From: Clostridiaceae bacterium
GTDB taxonomy: Bacteria > Bacillota > Clostridia > Oscillospirales > Acutalibacteraceae
Reading direction: 5' to 3'
Length of the DNA: 45,042 nucleotides
Assembly (NCBI GenBank): GCA_016290665.1
Contig: JAEEUW010000006.1
Location: 1 to 45,042, forward strand
Of the stretch, positions 9,116-44,711 are shown piece by piece. The notes below the pieces were generated by a model that was not told where the DNA came from, made no database searches, and worked only from the letters and a program-made list of their open reading frames with translations. Both the position numbers and the translations under genes were made by a program. Position 1 is the first letter of the stretch. Each line of letters starts with the position of its first letter.

Positions 9116-9823
9116 ATGCAGGCAATCTATAAACGCATTCTGCTCAAGCTTTCCGGCGAGGTGCTGGCCGGCCCGGACGGCAAGGGCATTGACTTCAATA
9201 CCGTTACCAGCATCTGCAAAGCCGTGAAGGACTGCGCCGCGCTCGGCGTGGAAATCGGCCTTGTCGTCGGCGGCGGCAACTTCTGGCGCGGCCGCAGCAG
9301 CGGCGAAATGGACCGCACCCGCGCCGACCACATGGGCATGCTGGCCACCACGATGAACGCGCTGGCGCTGGCCGACGCGCTCGAGCAGATGGGCGTCGAT
9401 GTGCGCGTGCAGACCGCGATCCCGATGCCGCAGGTGGCGGAGCCCTATATCCGCAACCGCGCGGTGCGTCACCTCGAAAAGGGGCGCGTGGTGATCTTCG
9501 GCTGCGGCACGGGCAACCCGTTCTTCTCGACCGATACGGCGGCGGCCCTGCGCGCGGCGGAGATCAACGCCGAAATCATCTTCAAGGCGACCAACGTGGA
9601 CGGCGTCTATGACAAGGACCCGAACAAGTTCGCCGACGCCGTGAAATACGACACGCTGACCCACACCGAGATTCTGCAGAAGGGCCTTGCCGTCATGGAC
9701 GCCACCGCCGCTTCGCTTTGCCGCGACAACGGCATCTCCATCCTCGTGTTCAACCTGGCCGACCCGGAAAACATTGTCCGCGCGGTGAAGGGCGAGAACG
9801 TGGGCACGGTGGTGAAGGAATAA
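9116..9823 (+). CDS. pyrH: UMP kinase
   Basis: Phosphorylates UMP to UDP with ATP, an essential step of pyrimidine nucleotide synthesis, in the cytoplasm. It is 235 residues, a normal length for the bacterial amino-acid-kinase-fold enzyme. Visible motifs are KLSGEVL near the N-terminus, [13 protein letters not shown], the [11 protein letters not shown] segment and [13 protein letters not shown]. Start ATG 9116 follows GGGAGGGG. The usual upstream neighbours rpsB-tsf are absent; it has its own promoter and a terminator. frr follows, as in most Firmicutes. Confidence 0.96.
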
Positions 9824-9846
9824 TTAAGAATTAAGAATTATGAATG
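9824..9846. repeat. Short AT-rich direct repeat after pyrH
   Basis: Imperfect direct repeats of TTAAGAA/TTATGAA between the pyrH stop and its terminator. They stand out against GC-rich surroundings. No function is evident. Confidence 0.5.
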
Positions 9847-12374: not shown

Positions 12375-13547
12375 ATGACAAAGTGTCTTTCCATTCTCGG
12401 CTCCACGGGGTCGATCGGCACACAGTCGCTTGACGTTGCCGAACGGCTGGGCATGCGCGTCTGCTGTCTGACGGCGCATTCCAACGACCGTCTGCTGGAA
12501 GAACAGGCGAGAAAATATCAGCCGCACACGGTCGCGCTCGTGGACGAGGCCGCGGCCAAGCGGCTCCGGCTCGCCCTGCGCGACACCTCCATCCGGGTCC
12601 TTTCCGGCATGGAGGGCGTTTGCGTTTGTGCGGCGGACGACGAGGCCGACACCGTGCTGACCAGCGTGGTCGGCATGGCGGGCCTGCAGCCCACACTCTG
12701 CGCCATTGAGGCGAAAAAGAAGATTGCCCTTGCCAACAAGGAAACGCTGGTGGCGGGCGGCGCGCTCGTGACCCGGAAGGCAAAGGAAAACGGCGTGGAG
12801 CTTCTGCCCGTGGACAGCGAGCATTCCGCCATCTTTCAGTCGCTGCAGGGGATGCGCCGCAAAGAGGAGCTCAAGTCGATCTTCCTCACGGCGTCGGGCG
12901 GCCCGTTCTTCGGCAAAACGAAGGAGGAGCTGCGCCGGGTGACGGTCAAGGAAGCGCTCAGGCACCCCAACTGGAGCATGGGCGCCAAAATCACCGTGGA
13001 TTCCGCCACGATGATGAACAAGGGGCTGGAGCTGATCGAAGCCGTGTGGCTGTTCGGCGTGCGGCCCGATCAGATCGAGGTGGTGGTGCACCGCGAAAGC
13101 GTGGTGCATTCCGCCGTGGAATTCGTTGATAACTCCGTGATCGCGCAGCTCGGCGTGCCCGATATGCGCATCCCGATCCAATATGCGCTCACCTTTCCGG
13201 CGCGCTGTCCGTCGCCGGTGAAAAAGCTCTCGCTGCCCGATTACGGCAAGCTGACCTTCAGCCGCCCGGACGAGGACACCTTCCGCTGCATCGCGCTGTG
13301 CCGCGGCGCCATCGAGCGCGGCGGACTGTATCCGTGCATCGCCAACGGCGCCAACGAAGAGGCGAACGCCCTGTTCCGGCAGGGGAAGATCGGCTTCCTC
13401 GATATCGCCGACCTCGTGGAAGGCGCGCTCGAGGCGGTTGAAAGCAAAGAGACCTACGCCCTGCAGGACGTGTTTGACGCGGACGCGGCGGCACGCGCTT
13501 ATGTGCGTGCGCACATAAGCAAATTCGGAATTCCGAATTCCCAATGA
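12375..13547 (+). CDS. dxr: 1-deoxy-D-xylulose 5-phosphate reductoisomerase
   Basis: First committed enzyme of the MEP isoprenoid pathway, NADPH- and divalent-metal-dependent. It is 390 residues. The nucleotide loop LGSTGSIGTQ is at residues 7-16. LANKETLV, DSEHSAIFQ, TASGGPF, HPNWSMGAKITVDSATMMNK and ANGANEEAN mark the metal- and substrate-binding domain. It starts 14 bases after cdsA with a weak ribosome site and probably relies on read-through from upstream ribosomes. ispG three genes on is a later enzyme of the same pathway. Confidence 0.97.
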   Translation: MTKCLSILGSTGSIGTQSLDVAERLGMRVCCLTAHSNDRLLEEQARKYQPHTVALVDEAAAKRLRLALRDTSIRVLSGMEGVCVCAADDEADTVLTSVVGMAGLQPTLCAIEAKKKIALANKETLVAGGALVTRKAKENGVELLPVDSEHSAIFQSLQGMRRKEELKSIFLTASGGPFFGKTKEELRRVTVKEALRHPNWSMGAKITVDSATMMNKGLELIEAVWLFGVRPDQIEVVVHRESVVHSAVEFVDNSVIAQLGVPDMRIPIQYALTFPARCPSPVKKLSLPDYGKLTFSRPDEDTFRCIALCRGAIERGGLYPCIANGANEEANALFRQGKIGFLDIADLVEGALEAVESKETYALQDVFDADAAARAYVRAHISKFGIPNSQ

Positions 13548-14888: not shown

Positions 14889-14916
14889 GTGTGCAGGGAA
14901 CAGGGAACAGGCCGCC

Positions 14917-19100: not shown

Positions 19101-19877
19101 GACAACGCGCAGGAGCTGATTCGCAACGGCACCTGCGACATCAGTAACGTCATCGGTACCCGCGACAGCATCATGGTCTATCTGATGCACAAGGGCGTGG
19201 AGCCGAGCATGGCGTTCAAGATCATGGAGATCGTGCGCAAGGGCAAGGCGACTAAGCTGCTGACCGACGAGCACAAGCAGGCGATGAAGGAGCACGGCGT
19301 GGAGCAGTGGTACATCGATTCCTGCATGAAGATTCAGTACATGTTCCCGAAGGCGCACGCGGCGGCCTACGTCAGCGCGGCGCTGCGGCTGGGCTGGTAC
19401 AAGATCTATTATCCGGTGGAATACTACGCGGCCTACATGACCGTCCGCGGCGACGATATCGACGCGGCTGCCGTGCTGGAAGGCCGGGGAGCGGTCAAAC
19501 GCCTGATGGAAGAGATCAAGCAAAAGGGCAAGGAAGCCCCGCCGAAGGAGCAGAACATGTATCCCGGCCTGCAGGTTGTCAACGAGATGATGGCCCGCGG
19601 CGTCGAATTCCTTCCCGTTGATATTTACAAGTCCGAAGCGACGACCTACAAGATCGAGGACGGCAAAATCCGCATGCCGTTTTCGGCGCTGTCCGGCGTG
19701 GGCGAAAACGCCGCCGTCGCGCTGGCGGAAGCGCGCAGGGACGGCGAGACCTTCGTTTCCGTCGATGATTACGCGGCCAGGAGCGGCGCCTCCTCCGCCG
19801 TGATCGACGCGCTGCGTCTGGTCGGCGCGTTCAAGGGGATGCCCGAAACGCGGCAGATCAGTTTGTTTGATTTTTGA
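16134..19877 (+). CDS. polC: DNA polymerase III alpha subunit, PolC type, lacking the exonuclease domain
   Basis: Replicative polymerase of Gram-positive type. ATG 16134, with AGAGGA upstream, gives 1247 residues, against roughly 1430 or more for classical PolC. Order: N-terminal domain; OB fold from about residue 228; PHP domain opening VELHLHTKMSMMDG (331 on); polymerase core. The core has a zinc pair C716/C719 and C741/C744, the catalytic DID in SPDIDLNFSGEYQ (D770, D772), and GVKRTTGQHPGGM. Between GIEN (390-393) and the resumed PHP segment YYHMILLARNNTGLKN (from about 414) only some 20 residues remain. In classical PolC a DnaQ-like 3'-5' exonuclease of about 170-200 residues is inserted here. 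Proofreading must therefore come from elsewhere or be absent. The C-terminus, ISLFDF, resembles a clamp-binding peptide. Confidence 0.95.
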   Translation: MSCEFLTLFGAIPDEAVQTRLPAGTTVERVQIFKDSRLMRLALAFPVLVRGTAVEDVAAALEKALQLDKVEIDVQMPPESFSEAYFSTLVGEVNRAVAASNGFFKDAVCTLRGNDFIITLQHGGAEILKSCECDRLMEKLVMQRFSRAVQVFFEGREIEATDDDVVHMIRTAEDDNLRSKGVDPREARAMQEKPKAHRIAEGIPLYLETAKPIYGNKITKDPTPLAQISVEDGSCVVWGTIFRFDSRETRDRRSCIITFNISDNTYAYSCKVFERKENCDQLLNKLKDGVTVLIRGDLTYDKFSGENVISPRAISLVEKIPPVDDAEEKRVELHLHTKMSMMDGMTDPAVLVRRAVAWGHKAIAITDHGVVQAYPEAVAAAGGKIKVILGIENYYIDDTETSFDEWKKDKKAKYYHMILLARNNTGLKNLYQLISKSNLKYFHRRPIIPKSELVRHREGLLIGSACEAGEVYRAVAQEKSDEEILKIASFYDYLEIQPCGNNGYMIRSENFPNVNSVEDIQRLNKKVIHAADALGKKVVATCDVHFIDPEDAVYRAILMAGQGYPDADQQAPLFFRNTGDMLAEFAYLGEETAKEVVVTNPNLIADMIEPLMPIPSGNFPPSIEGADEELKRLCWEKTRRLYGDPVPDYVSQRLTRELDSIIRHGFGVLYMIAQKLVKNSEDHGYLVGSRGSVGSSYVATAAGISEVNPLAPHYRCPNCRHTEFFLNGEVGSGYDLPPKACPDCGTMMERDGHDIPFETFLGFKGDKSPDIDLNFSGEYQFYAHRYTEELFGVTHVFKAGTIATVADKTAFGFVRKYLEERGKTVSRAEEDRLAIGCTGVKRTTGQHPGGMVVVPKKFDAEDFTPVQHPSDDATKGMITTHFDFHALHDTILKLDNLGHDVPTLYKHLEDLTGIPAMQTDICDPKVYALMASPEPLGVTAEDIDCPTGTLSIPEMGTPFVIQMLLDAKPKNFSDLLQVSGLSHGTGVWLDNAQELIRNGTCDISNVIGTRDSIMVYLMHKGVEPSMAFKIMEIVRKGKATKLLTDEHKQAMKEHGVEQWYIDSCMKIQYMFPKAHAAAYVSAALRLGWYKIYYPVEYYAAYMTVRGDDIDAAAVLEGRGAVKRLMEEIKQKGKEAPPKEQNMYPGLQVVNEMMARGVEFLPVDIYKSEATTYKIEDGKIRMPFSALSGVGENAAVALAEARRDGETFVSVDDYAARSGASSAVIDALRLVGAFKGMPETRQISLFDF

Positions 19878-19878
19878 G

Positions 19879-20005
19879 TTTGAGAGACTGAGGGACGAAA
19901 GGGATTGAGCGGAGAAGTGACGCGGGAAAACGATCAACAAATACTGTGTCCTGCCCGCGTCTAAAAAATCACTGAATCCCTCATCCCCTAATCCCTAATC
20001 CCTGA
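19879..20005. repeat. Imperfect palindromic intergenic region with AATCCCT repeats
   Basis: The 145-base gap between polC and the next gene has an 8-bp inverted repeat GACGCGGG (19919-19926) / CCCGCGTC (19954-19961). Outside it are GGGATT (from 19901) and AATCCC (from 19975) in opposite orientation, and short AATCCCT direct repeats follow to 20004. The whole reads as a nested palindrome. There is no T-run on the plus strand, so it is a poor terminator. It shares its repeat word with 131-209. Confidence 0.55.
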
Positions 20006-41970: not shown

Positions 41971-42250
41971 TTATGCTTCTCCGCAGAACTTAATTTGCTC
42001 ATCGCCCTCAACCTTTTTTCAGACAGTCCGCATTCCTTGGCTCATACGGCACTGAAATGAAATCTTTCCTTTGGCGGTACAGGCAGCATACTGTCTCCAC
42101 GTGCGTTGGAGCAGCAGGTCAAATAAAACGGCTTGTATTCGACCCGCTGGTTCATCCCAATGAAGGAATGGGCAATTTTCCGGTATCTGTCGAGGTTGAG
42201 ACAGTAAGTTGAATATCGACAGGCCGATAAACCGGAATTTGCCGGGTTTA
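41971..42250. other. Gene-free stretch with several hairpins and two short antisense ORFs
   Basis: No gene is called. On the plus strand 42057-42212 is a 51-codon open frame; on the minus strand a frame with a TTG start covers 42042-42254. Neither has a ribosome site or a recognisable product. The DNA contains inverted repeats: CTCCA/TGGAG near 42095-42112, and GATAAACCGG (42226-42235) with CCGGGTTTATC (42242-42252). The last directly follows the stop of the minus-strand membrane protein gene and could mark its 3' end, although no T-run follows. It may be an eroded gene or a structured repeat. Confidence 0.4.
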
Positions 42251-42781
42251 TCAAATTGACGCGGAATTCTGATTCTCAGACTTATCTTTATATAGCTTCA
42301 ATGAAATAATAATACCTGCGAGCATAGGAAGAAAATATGCAACACTTATCAATAATAACTTTATTCCATCTGTACCAATGCCAATCACAGTTAGCAATTG
42401 ACTGTATATTGAAACTATCGCAACACAAGGAAAAACAAAAATTATTTGCATAACATCAGCTATAAAAGAAATAACCGGTAGCTTTGCATCCATAACAACT
42501 CCAAGCAGGAAGGAAATTACCCAACAAAATGCAGGTAAAGAAAAACAAAGCATTGAGGTTTTGAAATAAACACTCTTGCCATATCTCACGGAATGTTTTG
42601 CAACCAAAATGCAAGCAATTGCAAAAACAATCGGAAAAGCAAAAATTAACGGTCCGGTTGGATAAAGCTCAATATCTTCAACAAACGATAATCTCCCCGA
42701 TAACAGATGACCAAATATCCACAGTCCGATACCTGTCAAAACACCTTGAACAATTTGTGTTGATTTTTTTTGTGTGTTCAT
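42251..42781 (-). CDS. Small integral membrane protein, unknown family
   Basis: A 176-residue hydrophobic protein with about five membrane segments. ATG 42781 is preferred, with GGGGTG upstream; a longer frame runs back into the four-helix-bundle gene antiparallel-free region without a ribosome site. The gene is markedly AT-rich compared with the core block. It starts 46 bases after the four-helix-bundle gene in the same direction, so they may be co-transcribed. No family recognised. Confidence 0.65.
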   Translation of the reverse strand: MNTQKKSTQIVQGVLTGIGLWIFGHLLSGRLSFVEDIELYPTGPLIFAFPIVFAIACILVAKHSVRYGKSVYFKTSMLCFSLPAFCWVISFLLGVVMDAKLPVISFIADVMQIIFVFPCVAIVSIYSQLLTVIGIGTDGIKLLLISVAYFLPMLAGIIISLKLYKDKSENQNSASI

Positions 42782-42827
42782 AAGAGCACCCCACTTAAAA
42801 ACTTTATTATCAACAAATCCCGATTTG

Positions 42828-43190
42828 TCAGTTTGTTCCACTGTTTTTCTTTGCCGTTGTGATCGAGGCGACGAGCAGTTTTCTGATCTTACTGCATTGT
42901 CCATACATCTCTGTAAATTCCGCATCCGTGAGAATACAGGCCGTATGGAAAATATCAAGCCAGTACTCCGTTTCATAACACTCTTTCAATGCTATCTGAA
43001 ACTTGTTGATAAAACCCGCTTTACTGGAAGCGTGATTTGCTTCGTGGATGTTCGCGCCGATACTTGTGCCGCTTCGAAGAAGTTGATTGAGGATCGCGGT
43101 TGCCTTTTTGCGTTCCCTCAGATTTTCACAAAGCCTGATGATATCAACTGAAAATGCTTTTGACAGTATAACAAGTTGGTTGTCTGCCAT
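42828..43190 (-). CDS. Four-helix-bundle protein (S23/Avd-like family)
   Basis: A 120-residue all-helical protein. The segment LLRSGTSIGANIHEANHASS followed by FINKFQIALKECYETEYWL is the signature of the bacterial four-helix-bundle family. The family includes proteins encoded in 23S rRNA intervening sequences and is structurally related to the Avd accessory protein of diversity-generating retroelements. ATG 43190 follows AAAGGAG at a good distance; the longer frame translates the hairpin array and is rejected. The gene sits immediately downstream of the array at 43207-43392. Known relatives bind nucleic acid or assemble as pentamers; no specific role is shown here. Confidence 0.88.
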   Translation of the reverse strand: MADNQLVILSKAFSVDIIRLCENLRERKKATAILNQLLRSGTSIGANIHEANHASSKAGFINKFQIALKECYETEYWLDIFHTACILTDAEFTEMYGQCSKIRKLLVASITTAKKNSGTN

Positions 43191-43206
43191 AGCTTTTCTC
43201 CTTTGA

Positions 43207-43392
43207 ATGAATTGACGCTGCGCGTCATGATTTGCGCTACGCGCATGATTTCTCGCTGCGCTCCGTGAATTGAATTGCGCCTTCATGCCCCGCAGGGCAA
43301 TTCATGACCGAAGGTCAATTCATGTCCGAAGGACAATTCACGCGCCGTCAGGCGCAATTCATTGTCGGGACAGTCGAACGACTGTCTCGACA
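43207..43392. repeat. Array of compensatory mini-hairpins with constant spacer
   Basis: Hairpins on the plus strand: GACGC-TGC-GCGTC (43214-43226); TGCGC-TAC-GCGCA (43233-43245); a degenerate unit (43251-43265); TGCCC-CGCA-GGGCA (43286-43299); TGACC-GAA-GGTCA (43305-43317); TGTCC-GAA-GGACA (43323-43335); GCGCC-GTCA-GGCGC (43342-43355); and a 13-bp stem (43363-43375 with 43380-43392). Between the regular units is AATTCAT or AATTCAC at 43299, 43317, 43335 and 43356. Stem sequences differ while pairing is kept. The last AATTCAT contains the rlmD stop codon (minus strand) and the large hairpin uses the final rlmD codons. The other end abuts the ribosome site of the four-helix-bundle gene. Confidence 0.92.
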
Positions 43393-44711
43393 TGCCCGGT
43401 TCTCGGGAATAAGTCAACCCCTTCAATCATTTGCACTTTGTATCCGGCCTCGCACAGCATCGCCGCGTCGCGGGCGCCTGTCGCGTGGTTGCAGGAGATC
43501 ATGATTATCTTTTCGGGCGACATTTTTATTATATCGGCGATGACCGACGGCGCGCAGCCCTTCCTGGGCGGATCTATCACCACCGCCGCGGGGCTTGTTC
43601 CCTCTCCGGCAAGTCGTTGCACCGCCGCGGCCGCGTCGGCGCATATAAATTCGGCGTTCGCAATACCGTTTTTCTCCGCATTGCGGCGCGCGTCCTCGAC
43701 CGCTTCGGGTATTATTTCGACGCCGACCAGCCGGTCCGCCCGCGAGGCGAGCGACAGTCCGACGGTGCCGATTCCGCAGTAGAGATCGACCAGCGTCCCG
43801 CGGCATTCGCCGAGCATTTCTCCGGCAATACCGTAAAGCAGTTCGGCTCCGTCTCGGTTTACTTGATAAAAAGAGAGCGGAGATATTTCGAAATCGAGTC
43901 CGCATAGACGGTCGGTGATCCTGTCGGGGCCGAAAAGCGTCACGACCCGGTCGCCGAGAATAACGTTTCCCGGCTTTTTGTTTATGATGACCGAGACCGA
44001 CGTCGTTTCGGGCAGCGCTTTTCTCACCGCGGACACGAAATCCTCCGCGCCGGGAAGACGGTCTCCGTTGATTATCAGAGAAACCGATATCTGCCCCGTC
44101 GCTCTCGCGTCGCGGATATATAGATGTCTGACAAGCCCGCCTTTTCCGTCCTCATAAGCGCAAAGGCCACGCGAGTTGCAGAAATCCTCGGCGGCGCGTA
44201 TGACCCGGGAGTGAAATTCCGGAACGAGCATGCATCCCGGGCAGGGGACGACCCGGTGAGATCGCGGCGCGTAAAGACCGAAAATCAGCTTCCCTTCCCG
44301 ATCGGTCCCCGCCGGATACTCGGCCTTGTTGCGGTAGCGGTCGGGAGAGCCCGGAGCGTGCACGGTGACCTTTTCGATATCGAACCCGCCGATGCGGCGG
44401 AAGCTCTCGGCGATCCATCCGCCTTTTATCTTTAGTTCGTAATCGTAACCGATATGCCGCAGGGCGCATCCGCCGCACTTTCCGAAGGCAGGACAGCCGG
44501 GATCGGTCCTGTGCGGAGAGGGCGTAATTATCCGGTCCGCCTTTGCATATCCGTAAGAGCGGCCTTCTTTGAGTACGGTGCACTCCGCGACGTCTCCCGG
44601 AGCAGTTCCGGGAACGAAAAGCACGTATCCGTCGGGCGCTCTTCCAACGCCCGAGCCGTCCGGGGTGATATCGTCAATGACAAGTTTGATCTTTTCGTTT
44701 TTCGAATGCAT
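43359..44711 (-). CDS. RlmD-type 23S rRNA (uracil-C5)-methyltransferase
   Basis: A 450-residue TrmA/RlmD-family enzyme. An N-terminal TRAM domain (about 5-60) is followed by an iron-sulfur cluster set C73, C79, C82 and probably C160 in VPCPGC. The methyltransferase domain has FYQVN, DLYCGIGTVGLSLA (SAM), DPPRKG and the nucleophile C407 in ISCNHATGARD, where the usual Pro after SCN is His. The C-terminus HVETVV is canonical, but the last five codons (RLSRQ) are the complementary arm of the array's 13-bp hairpin. Codon use (more ATA, GGA, AGA) differs from the core genes. The exact target uridine is not certain. Confidence 0.9.
   Translation of the reverse strand: MHSKNEKIKLVIDDITPDGSGVGRAPDGYVLFVPGTAPGDVAECTVLKEGRSYGYAKADRIITPSPHRTDPGCPAFGKCGGCALRHIGYDYELKIKGGWIAESFRRIGGFDIEKVTVHAPGSPDRYRNKAEYPAGTDREGKLIFGLYAPRSHRVVPCPGCMLVPEFHSRVIRAAEDFCNSRGLCAYEDGKGGLVRHLYIRDARATGQISVSLIINGDRLPGAEDFVSAVRKALPETTSVSVIINKKPGNVILGDRVVTLFGPDRITDRLCGLDFEISPLSFYQVNRDGAELLYGIAGEMLGECRGTLVDLYCGIGTVGLSLASRADRLVGVEIIPEAVEDARRNAEKNGIANAEFICADAAAAVQRLAGEGTSPAAVVIDPPRKGCAPSVIADIIKMSPEKIIMISCNHATGARDAAMLCEAGYKVQMIEGVDLFPRTGHVETVVRLSRQ

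Follow-up and report, generated by a model that had tools for sequence, protein, structure and literature searches.

Hairpin arrays upstream of PF05635 four-helix-bundle genes as the probable end region of a mobile gene cassette

Integron attC sites fold, group IIC introns target terminator hairpins, and the intervening sequences of 23S rRNA genes insert at rRNA hairpins or loops. GNA and GNNA loops give extra-stable DNA mini-hairpins, and GNRA is the RNA loop rule. According to the sections of PMC10053308 that bear on it, the four-helix-bundle (4HB) family PF05635 resembles Avd of diversity-generating retroelements. The corresponding sections of PMC2864571 present Gut-1 (Rfam RF01706) as a free-standing orphan noncoding RNA from gut metagenomes. 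Here we compare with these systems a hairpin array of a Clostridiaceae bacterium (assembly GCA_016290665.1), found in a stretch of 45,042 nucleotides (contig JAEEUW010000006.1, positions 1 to 45,042), referred to here as the window. The array (43213-43392) consists of two mutually inverted halves and lies immediately 5' of a minus-strand 4HB gene.

42251..42781, minus strand: next open reading frame (ORF), 176 aa, candidate cargo, no Pfam match, G+C given below
42828..43190, minus strand: 4HB gene, 120 aa, PF05635 (23S_rRNA_IVP), E 7.9e-24, 84.4 bits against a cut-off of 33.8
43198-43204, minus strand: AAAGGAG, ribosome-binding-like, behind H7
43213..43227, minus strand: H7, right half-array, TGACGC-TGC-GCGTCA on the plus strand, loop GCA on the minus strand
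43233..43245, minus strand: H6, right half-array, TGCGC-TAC-GCGCA on the plus strand, loop GTA on the minus strand
43252..43265, minus strand: H5, right half-array, degenerate, read from the sequence
43271..43282, minus strand: centre, 12 nt, perfect complement of 43350-43361 (first spacer plus one H1 arm)
43286..43299, minus strand: H4, left half-array, TGCCC-CGCA-GGGCA on the plus strand, loop CGCA
43305..43317, minus strand: H3, left half-array, TGACC-GAA-GGTCA on the plus strand, loop GAA
43323..43335, minus strand: H2, left half-array, TGTCC-GAA-GGACA on the plus strand, loop GAA
43342..43355, minus strand: H1, first hairpin of the left half-array, GCGCC-GTCA-GGCGC on the plus strand, loop GTCA
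43363..43392, minus strand: H0 hairpin, arms 43363-43376 and 43379-43392 of 14 nt, 93% complementary, found by mechanical palindrome detection
43359..44711, minus strand: host gene (rlmD), RlmD/TrmA-type uracil-5-methyltransferase, PF05958 E 3.6e-17, with TRAM

On the minus strand, going from rlmD towards the 4HB gene, the order is H0, H1 to H4, the centre, H5, H6, H7, AAAGGAG and ATG. Pairing of the centre with 43350-43361 would enclose H2 to H4. A preliminary description made from the sequence alone had listed seven clear hairpins and one degenerate unit, and our direct reading gave the same count; its loops (GAA, TGC, TAC, CGCA, GTCA) were all found, and its central spacing of 18 and 18 nt was recovered by mechanical detection as direct repeats 18 nt apart. 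The constant AATTCAT spacer that it proposed stood in part, being exact three times and present once as ATGAATT, with variants otherwise (AATTCAC, AAATCAT, GTGAATT). The mutual inversion of the two halves did not figure in that description. It had also set CRISPR aside, and we agree: identical repeats with unique spacers were not found, since the spacer motif recurs with variants, the hairpins differ and the units measure 18-21 nt.

We rejected chance palindromes on the basis of fold stability, chain length and an arm-swap covariation test (below). The RNA fold of 43190-43400 (minus strand) has a z of -5.17, and 0 of 200 shuffles were equally stable. The longest chain of perfect hairpins in the window (stem at least 5, gaps at most 14) is 5, and in 40 dinucleotide shuffles of the entire window the chain never exceeded 4, a length reached once. 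Folded alone as DNA, the left half-array has a z of -3.86 (plus) and -3.60 (minus); the right half-array alone had no significant stability relative to shuffles (z -0.47 and -1.06).

H0 is the palindromic 3' end of rlmD and holds the position of the terminator at other loci, and the rlmD stop codon falls inside the first array spacer. G+C is 35-42% over 42000-43249 (4HB gene and next ORF) versus 57-60% in rlmD; ORF 42251..42781 is probably cargo. Array-bearing rlmD genes stop soon after the motif HVE[TSC]V (in the window, HVETVVRLSRQ and stop), and several array-free rlmD genes of relatives (L142, L144, L148) extend well past it. The H0 tail recurs within the same genome, where a second rlmD (C15) has the same tail followed by a 99% identical array; a third (C34) is followed by an array, an alpha/beta hydrolase, an array and the next gene. 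Most genomes used here are metagenome drafts, with arrays at contig edges (e.g., C15). Other rlmD genes (L140 in G015, L143 in G019) share a different tail at the same codons, TTGATCACTCGAGCC...GAGGCTACAGAATAGAT, so that the end of rlmD possibly serves as a hot spot for elements of more than one kind.

Among named RNA features, Gut-1 alone matches the array. The left half aligns with the full model (1-77) at 43294-43364 on the minus strand (36.0 bits, E 2.6e-5, gathering threshold 50) as three consecutive hairpins with conserved spacers, and the right half weakly at 43201-43256 on the plus strand (15.2 bits, E 4.8). The Rfam scan of the window gave no match at gathering. The earlier view that usual feature types do not name the unit needs amending, as the half-array has a name in Rfam, Gut-1, even though the window copy scores below gathering; three scans of other loci gave matches at or above gathering in 4 of 9, 2 of 19 and 2 of 7. 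Across 39 related genomes we found 0 to 34 Gut-1 hits per genome, with at least one (E at most 0.001) in 26 and one over the cut-off in 20. PF05635 is present in 30 of the 39, that is, in 25 of the 26 genomes with Gut-1 (the exception, G037, has Gut-1 hits and no 4HB match) versus 5 of the 13 without (p 1.6e-4). A control of 14 genomes gave one match below the cut-off, in E. coli. Two phage-labelled records, both matching Gut-1 above gathering, and one IMG/VR contig, the one locus from that scan, also carry hairpin arrays.

We next consider the rules of stem, centre and loop. Covariation was measured on 21 of 28 extracted arrays, those of the GAAAT type (105 units); we disregarded pair counts from alignments A1 and A2, because variable stems misalign there. 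Stem sequences differ between loci, and the 5-nt arms are fully paired in 72% of the units. When arms were swapped between arrays at the same position, 19% were paired (maximum 30%), and the observed level was reached in 0 of 500 swaps; hence, stems covary and stay complementary, as had been claimed. In 21 of 21 of these GAAAT-type arrays, the centre contains a sequence complementary to the first spacer together with the first arm. Four units with 7-nt (heptamer) repeats, in which both arrays lie upstream of the 4HB gene, have the complement of the terminator's 5' arm at the centre position (10/10, 10/10, 11/11 and 15/16 matches, with strings chosen by eye).

Loops were counted only in hairpins between two same-orientation spacers (106 unique), 96 of which close with C-G on the ATTTC strand. 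On that strand, 56 of the 96 loops are GN..A, 2 are TN..C and 38 neither, a preference for d(C-GNA-G)/d(C-GNNA-G) on one strand. Extra-stable DNA mini-hairpins, on strands reading outward from the centre, account for this loop rule better than one RNA does. The rule also bears on the explanation that the array acts as RNA, either a leader or a noncoding RNA with a protective, processing or regulatory role towards the 4HB-cargo transcript, its spread by mobility being incidental. Such a role would agree with the RNA fold z of -5.17, the location of the array in the presumed 4HB 5' leader with a ribosome-binding-like sequence directly behind it, the position of the unit behind terminators, and the status of Gut-1 as an Rfam sRNA family in the sections of PMC2864571 used here. 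A single RNA, however, would show the GN..A preference in one half only, and we found it on opposite strands in the two halves (56 versus 2). Moreover, 10 of the 16 GNNA loops are GNYA rather than GNRA, related elements have inverted heptamer arrays on both sides of the gene, and no ORF was found behind 6 of 16 examined arrays. We therefore consider an RNA function unlikely and return to the array as a DNA end region.

The same unit recurs elsewhere. A protein search for 4HB relatives returned at least 515, of which the best 80 were taken as loci. Related arrays and 4HB genes recur behind unrelated host genes in a common order: a target hairpin, the left half-array, a centre that pairs back to the first hairpin, the inverted right half-array, the 4HB gene and a variable cargo ORF. 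The target hairpin is either the rlmD end or a terminator, in many cases that of a tRNA gene; in the GAAAT-spacer group the array lies directly behind a terminator-like hairpin. Within these best 80 loci, upstream hairpin content exceeds the control 99th percentile in 69 and a repeat feature is present at the 4HB flanks in 75, with 5 failing, compared with 12 of 310 control positions that have one. In 35 of 79 loci, a tRNA or tmRNA in sense orientation ends no more than 330 nt from the start of the 4HB gene, and L040, L047, L054 and L056 retain a tRNA 3' fragment alone (by eye). None of the findings that the preliminary description named as refuting it occurred, the array being neither confined to one genome, nor dissociated from 4HB genes, nor free of covariation.

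Cargo is diverse. The 81 loci including the window have 64 next ORFs in 57 clusters, chosen by a mechanical rule by which some short ones may be spurious, and 22 of the 64 overlap the 4HB stop, as ATGA. Ten next ORFs were scanned, the window's included: two are GNAT acetyltransferases, one is a DUF4279 protein, one has weak matches below cut-off and six are matchless. DUF4279 cargo lies behind the 4HB gene in L064 and directly behind a 4HB-less array in L169, the two being 73% identical. The unit is also found in reduced or expanded form, with a hairpin and left half only in L036 and L078, a shorter piece in L049 and extra direct-orientation array copies downstream of the 4HB gene in L007, L010, L026, L051 and L064. 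The left half-array of L269 (564-776) has six near-identical hairpins, which indicates that hairpin unit number varies, as by tandem duplication. That the array occurs only beside 4HB genes was ruled out, since just 1 of 16 arrays in fetched stretches has a 4HB gene behind it, with another ORF behind 9 and none found behind 6. Because many arrays have no adjoining 4HB gene, the 4HB gene could be a passenger.

At many other 4HB genes, the place of hairpin arrays is taken by plain inverted 7-nt repeat arrays. From 102 PF05635 matches in relatives, excluding the window's, we took the 81 best-scoring, 79 of which had enough flank. Inverted or hairpin repeats were found at the 4HB gene in 69 of these 79 loci versus 12 of 310 control positions (Fisher), and the inverted repeat spans the gene in 43, usually as tandem 7-nt units. 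The flank test failed in 10 of the 79, of which L212, L214, L234, L260, L269 and L281 have repeats by eye and the others do not. Ten plasmid loci from 25 records, picked for variety before their flanks were seen, cover five phyla (six cyanobacteria, Monoglobus, Treponema, Chlorohelix, Bernardetia). An inverted repeat spans the 4HB gene in 10 of 10 (29.7-58.3 bits; control 99th percentile 25.3), and the best period is 7 or 14 on both flanks in 10 of 10. The periodicity control has a 99th percentile of 0.84, a value inflated by the CAATCCCT array of the window itself; at least one flank exceeds it in 8 of the 10 plasmid loci and 28 of 81 relatives' loci. On the Anabaena cylindrica plasmid pANACY.01 (L345), cas2 and cas1 flank a 4HB gene that has heptamer arrays.

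Heptamer repeats are also found in the genome of the window. Two further 4HB genes (L001, L002) are flanked by inverted short-repeat arrays without hairpins, of the types GGGAACA/CCCTGTC and GTCAACAGT. At 19877-20003 of the window, in intergenic DNA, GAGGGACGAAAGGGATTGAG faces AATCCCTCATCCCCTAATCCCTAATCCCT as inverted arrays of about 7-nt repeats with no ORF, resembling ORF-less units at the pgk-tpiA site of relatives. Further short tandem arrays at 130-210, 9822-9845, 13522-13545 and 14894-14911 (CAATCCCT x10, AATTAAG x3.4, AATTCCG x3.4 and CAGGGAA x2.6) are possibly remnants of heptamer elements.

We then compared array type with 4HB phylogeny, using a tree of 173 proteins (151 labelled, 22 unlabelled; L071 and L019 left out). 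Hairpin versus heptamer flank requires 9 changes on the tree relative to a shuffled minimum of 36, several rows labelled as heptamer having hairpin arrays on both sides (e.g., L014, L015, L016, L020, L022, L025). Spacer type among the 93 hairpin rows requires 13 changes (shuffled minimum 32). AATTCAT as a universal spacer is thereby ruled out: the window 4HB sits in the GAATT clade, to which this spacer belongs, and the spacer is lineage-specific, being GAAAT, GATAT, GATTT or others elsewhere. In these sequence comparisons, array and spacer type follow 4HB lineage, with exceptions. L071 is a frameshifted chimera of a GATAT-type array with a foreign N-terminal part and a C-terminal part; the last two thirds of its 4HB are 96% identical to the window's. 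This implies that the array and N-terminal part are exchangeable and separable from most of the gene.

The preliminary description had proposed that array and gene form a mobile unit, and comparative evidence supports this, since many genomes carry the pair, at sites unrelated to one another. Seventy loci with enough flank gave 41 4HB gene pairs at least 85% identical. The upstream flank is unrelated in 35 of the 41, the downstream flank in 29 of 33 testable pairs, and both in 23. In three pairs (L045/L068, L008/L009, L004/L008) downstream DNA is 89-92% identical while the upstream flank is unrelated, which indicates that cargo can travel. The 4HB median dN/dS is 0.05 and the maximum 0.2 (22 of the 41 pairs computed); by this measure the 4HB gene is under purifying selection.

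Empty sites, another point raised at the outset, exist at pgk-tpiA and upstream of ilvD. At pgk-tpiA, where 20 of 23 loci were readable, two loci have a 4HB gene between inverted heptamer arrays, three have ORF-less inverted-array units, four have likely array remnants (the window's genome among them), six are empty (24-35 bp) and five have another short spacer. The pgk-tpiA gaps of G017, G021 and G007 (L293, L294, L295) contain a small hairpin with TACCCACC arms and a varying loop, filling a gap that is empty or 4HB-bearing in other genomes. Upstream of ilvD (12 of 16 loci readable), the hairpin-array unit of G006 directly follows a terminator hairpin. A terminator of that kind stands without the unit in G014, G002 and G003, the last of which may retain a short remnant. 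The unit of G008 at this site is an ORF-less heptamer one, and at the remaining loci the spacer is shorter or of another kind. Within a single genus, one site is found empty, filled, ORF-less or reduced to a remnant, and tandem copies of units exist among relatives.

These data also bear on whether arrays might be shared repeats through which homologous recombination shuffles neighbouring genes, with the 4HB gene a passenger and no dedicated transposition. Direct array copies flank genes in L007, L010, L026, L051 and L064, and the L071 chimera and the many arrays without a 4HB gene are in keeping with such shuffling. Yet arrays lie directly behind hairpins of unrelated genes, empty sites exist at pgk-tpiA and ilvD, array type and 4HB lineage are co-inherited, and selection on the 4HB gene is strong, so that we regard shuffling by recombination as distinctly unlikely. 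The units share with transposable elements related copies at unrelated sites, empty sites and inverted ends. We infer mobility from comparison; the compared loci showed neither a transposition event nor an excised form, nor any consistent duplication of the target site.

No known recombinase or other catalytic enzyme is encoded in the unit. Reverse transcriptase (RVT_1) gave 0 matches in the window's genome, an 85% complete draft, and was absent from 30 of 39 genomes, including the drafts G026, G034, G003, G009 and G002 (18-34 Gut-1 hits; 85-98% complete); G033 (32 Gut-1 hits) has RVT_1. A diversity-generating retroelement or group II intron was rejected as the class of this element for want of a reverse transcriptase. 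A related possibility is that a reverse transcriptase acting in trans copies array RNA with the Avd-like 4HB protein and that the copy integrates behind terminator hairpins. The placement at terminators would be analogous to that of group IIC introns, and the sections of PMC10053308 cited above liken PF05635 to Avd. Given that RVT_1 is absent from the window's draft genome and most of these genomes, with one match in array-rich G033, we consider such a retroelement very improbable. A REP pair or REPIN-RAYT system was rejected as well, in line with the preliminary description: Y1_Tnp, the domain of the Y1 (HUH) transposase partner, had no match in five array-rich genomes (G003, G007, G009, G026, G034). 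The window's genome has three weak Y1 matches, none near the window. Tyrosine recombinases (PF00589) occur in 38 of 39 genomes and are uninformative.

In our view, the array is likely to form the compound end of a mobile gene cassette. In this model, the 4HB protein would bind the arrays and bring the element ends and the hairpin target together, and because of the loop rule the bound form would probably be single-stranded DNA mini-hairpins. Hairpin arrays may be an elaboration of heptamer arrays. Strand transfer might be performed by an enzyme not encoded in the element, perhaps a host enzyme guided by the 4HB protein, and cargo would be exchanged just behind the 4HB gene and could be carried along. 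A broader reading, to which we give about an even chance, is that these units belong to an unrecognised and widespread class of mobile element with inverted 7-nt-repeat ends (hairpin-elaborated in gut Clostridia), PF05635 as its common protein, insertion behind or into hairpins, cassette cargo, and no encoded recombinase, transposase or reverse transcriptase. In its widest form, hairpin targets would include terminators, tRNA 3' ends, the rlmD end and rRNA helices (23S intervening sequences), with one DNA mini-hairpin per repeat in gut Clostridia. Searches of open-access PubMed Central, with subscription literature mostly outside their scope, turned up no paper connecting these repeats with 4HB genes and mobility; within that scope we regard the class as new, its movement being deduced from comparison only.

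If correct, this reading would unite Gut-1 RNA, heptamer repeats, rRNA intervening sequences and PF05635. PF05635, a large family of unknown function, would gain a testable role, the orphan Rfam RNA Gut-1 would become a component of the end of a mobile DNA, and heptamer repeats would be linked with 4HB genes across phyla.

Among known systems, Gut-1 has the same chain of three small hairpins and a GAAAT-like spacer. Left halves match it on the gene strand and right halves on the opposite strand; in the present loci, Gut-1 makes up one of two inverted halves, and the pair is associated with 4HB genes. Period-7 arrays like the heptamer tandem repeats of cyanobacteria known as STRR flank plasmid 4HB genes in Nostoc, Anabaena, Dolichospermum, Planktothrix and Euhalothece; unlike these, the repeats of the window lineage are parted by hairpins. 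REP/REPIN elements are likewise inverted pairs of short hairpins scattered in genomes. The neighbouring gene, described at the outset as S23/Avd-like, is indeed PF05635 (E 7.9e-24), and 2rld_A is its only PDB relative at E at most 0.1 (E 9.5e-23). Diversity-generating retroelements share the likeness through Avd (PMC10053308, in the sections cited), while the window's genome has no reverse transcriptase match. The 23S rRNA intervening sequences with their S23/IVP protein share the family itself and insertion at a hairpin; however, the array lies between methyltransferase and 4HB genes rather than inside a 23S rRNA gene, and the unit, which has arrays and cargo, follows protein-coding and tRNA genes. 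Integron cassettes are similar in that tandem cassettes are parted by structured, sequence-variable sites, and differ in array anatomy and in the 4HB protein that travels with many cassettes here. If these cassettes move, gut bacteria would have in them a means of exchanging genes that is comparable to integrons and aimed at hairpins.
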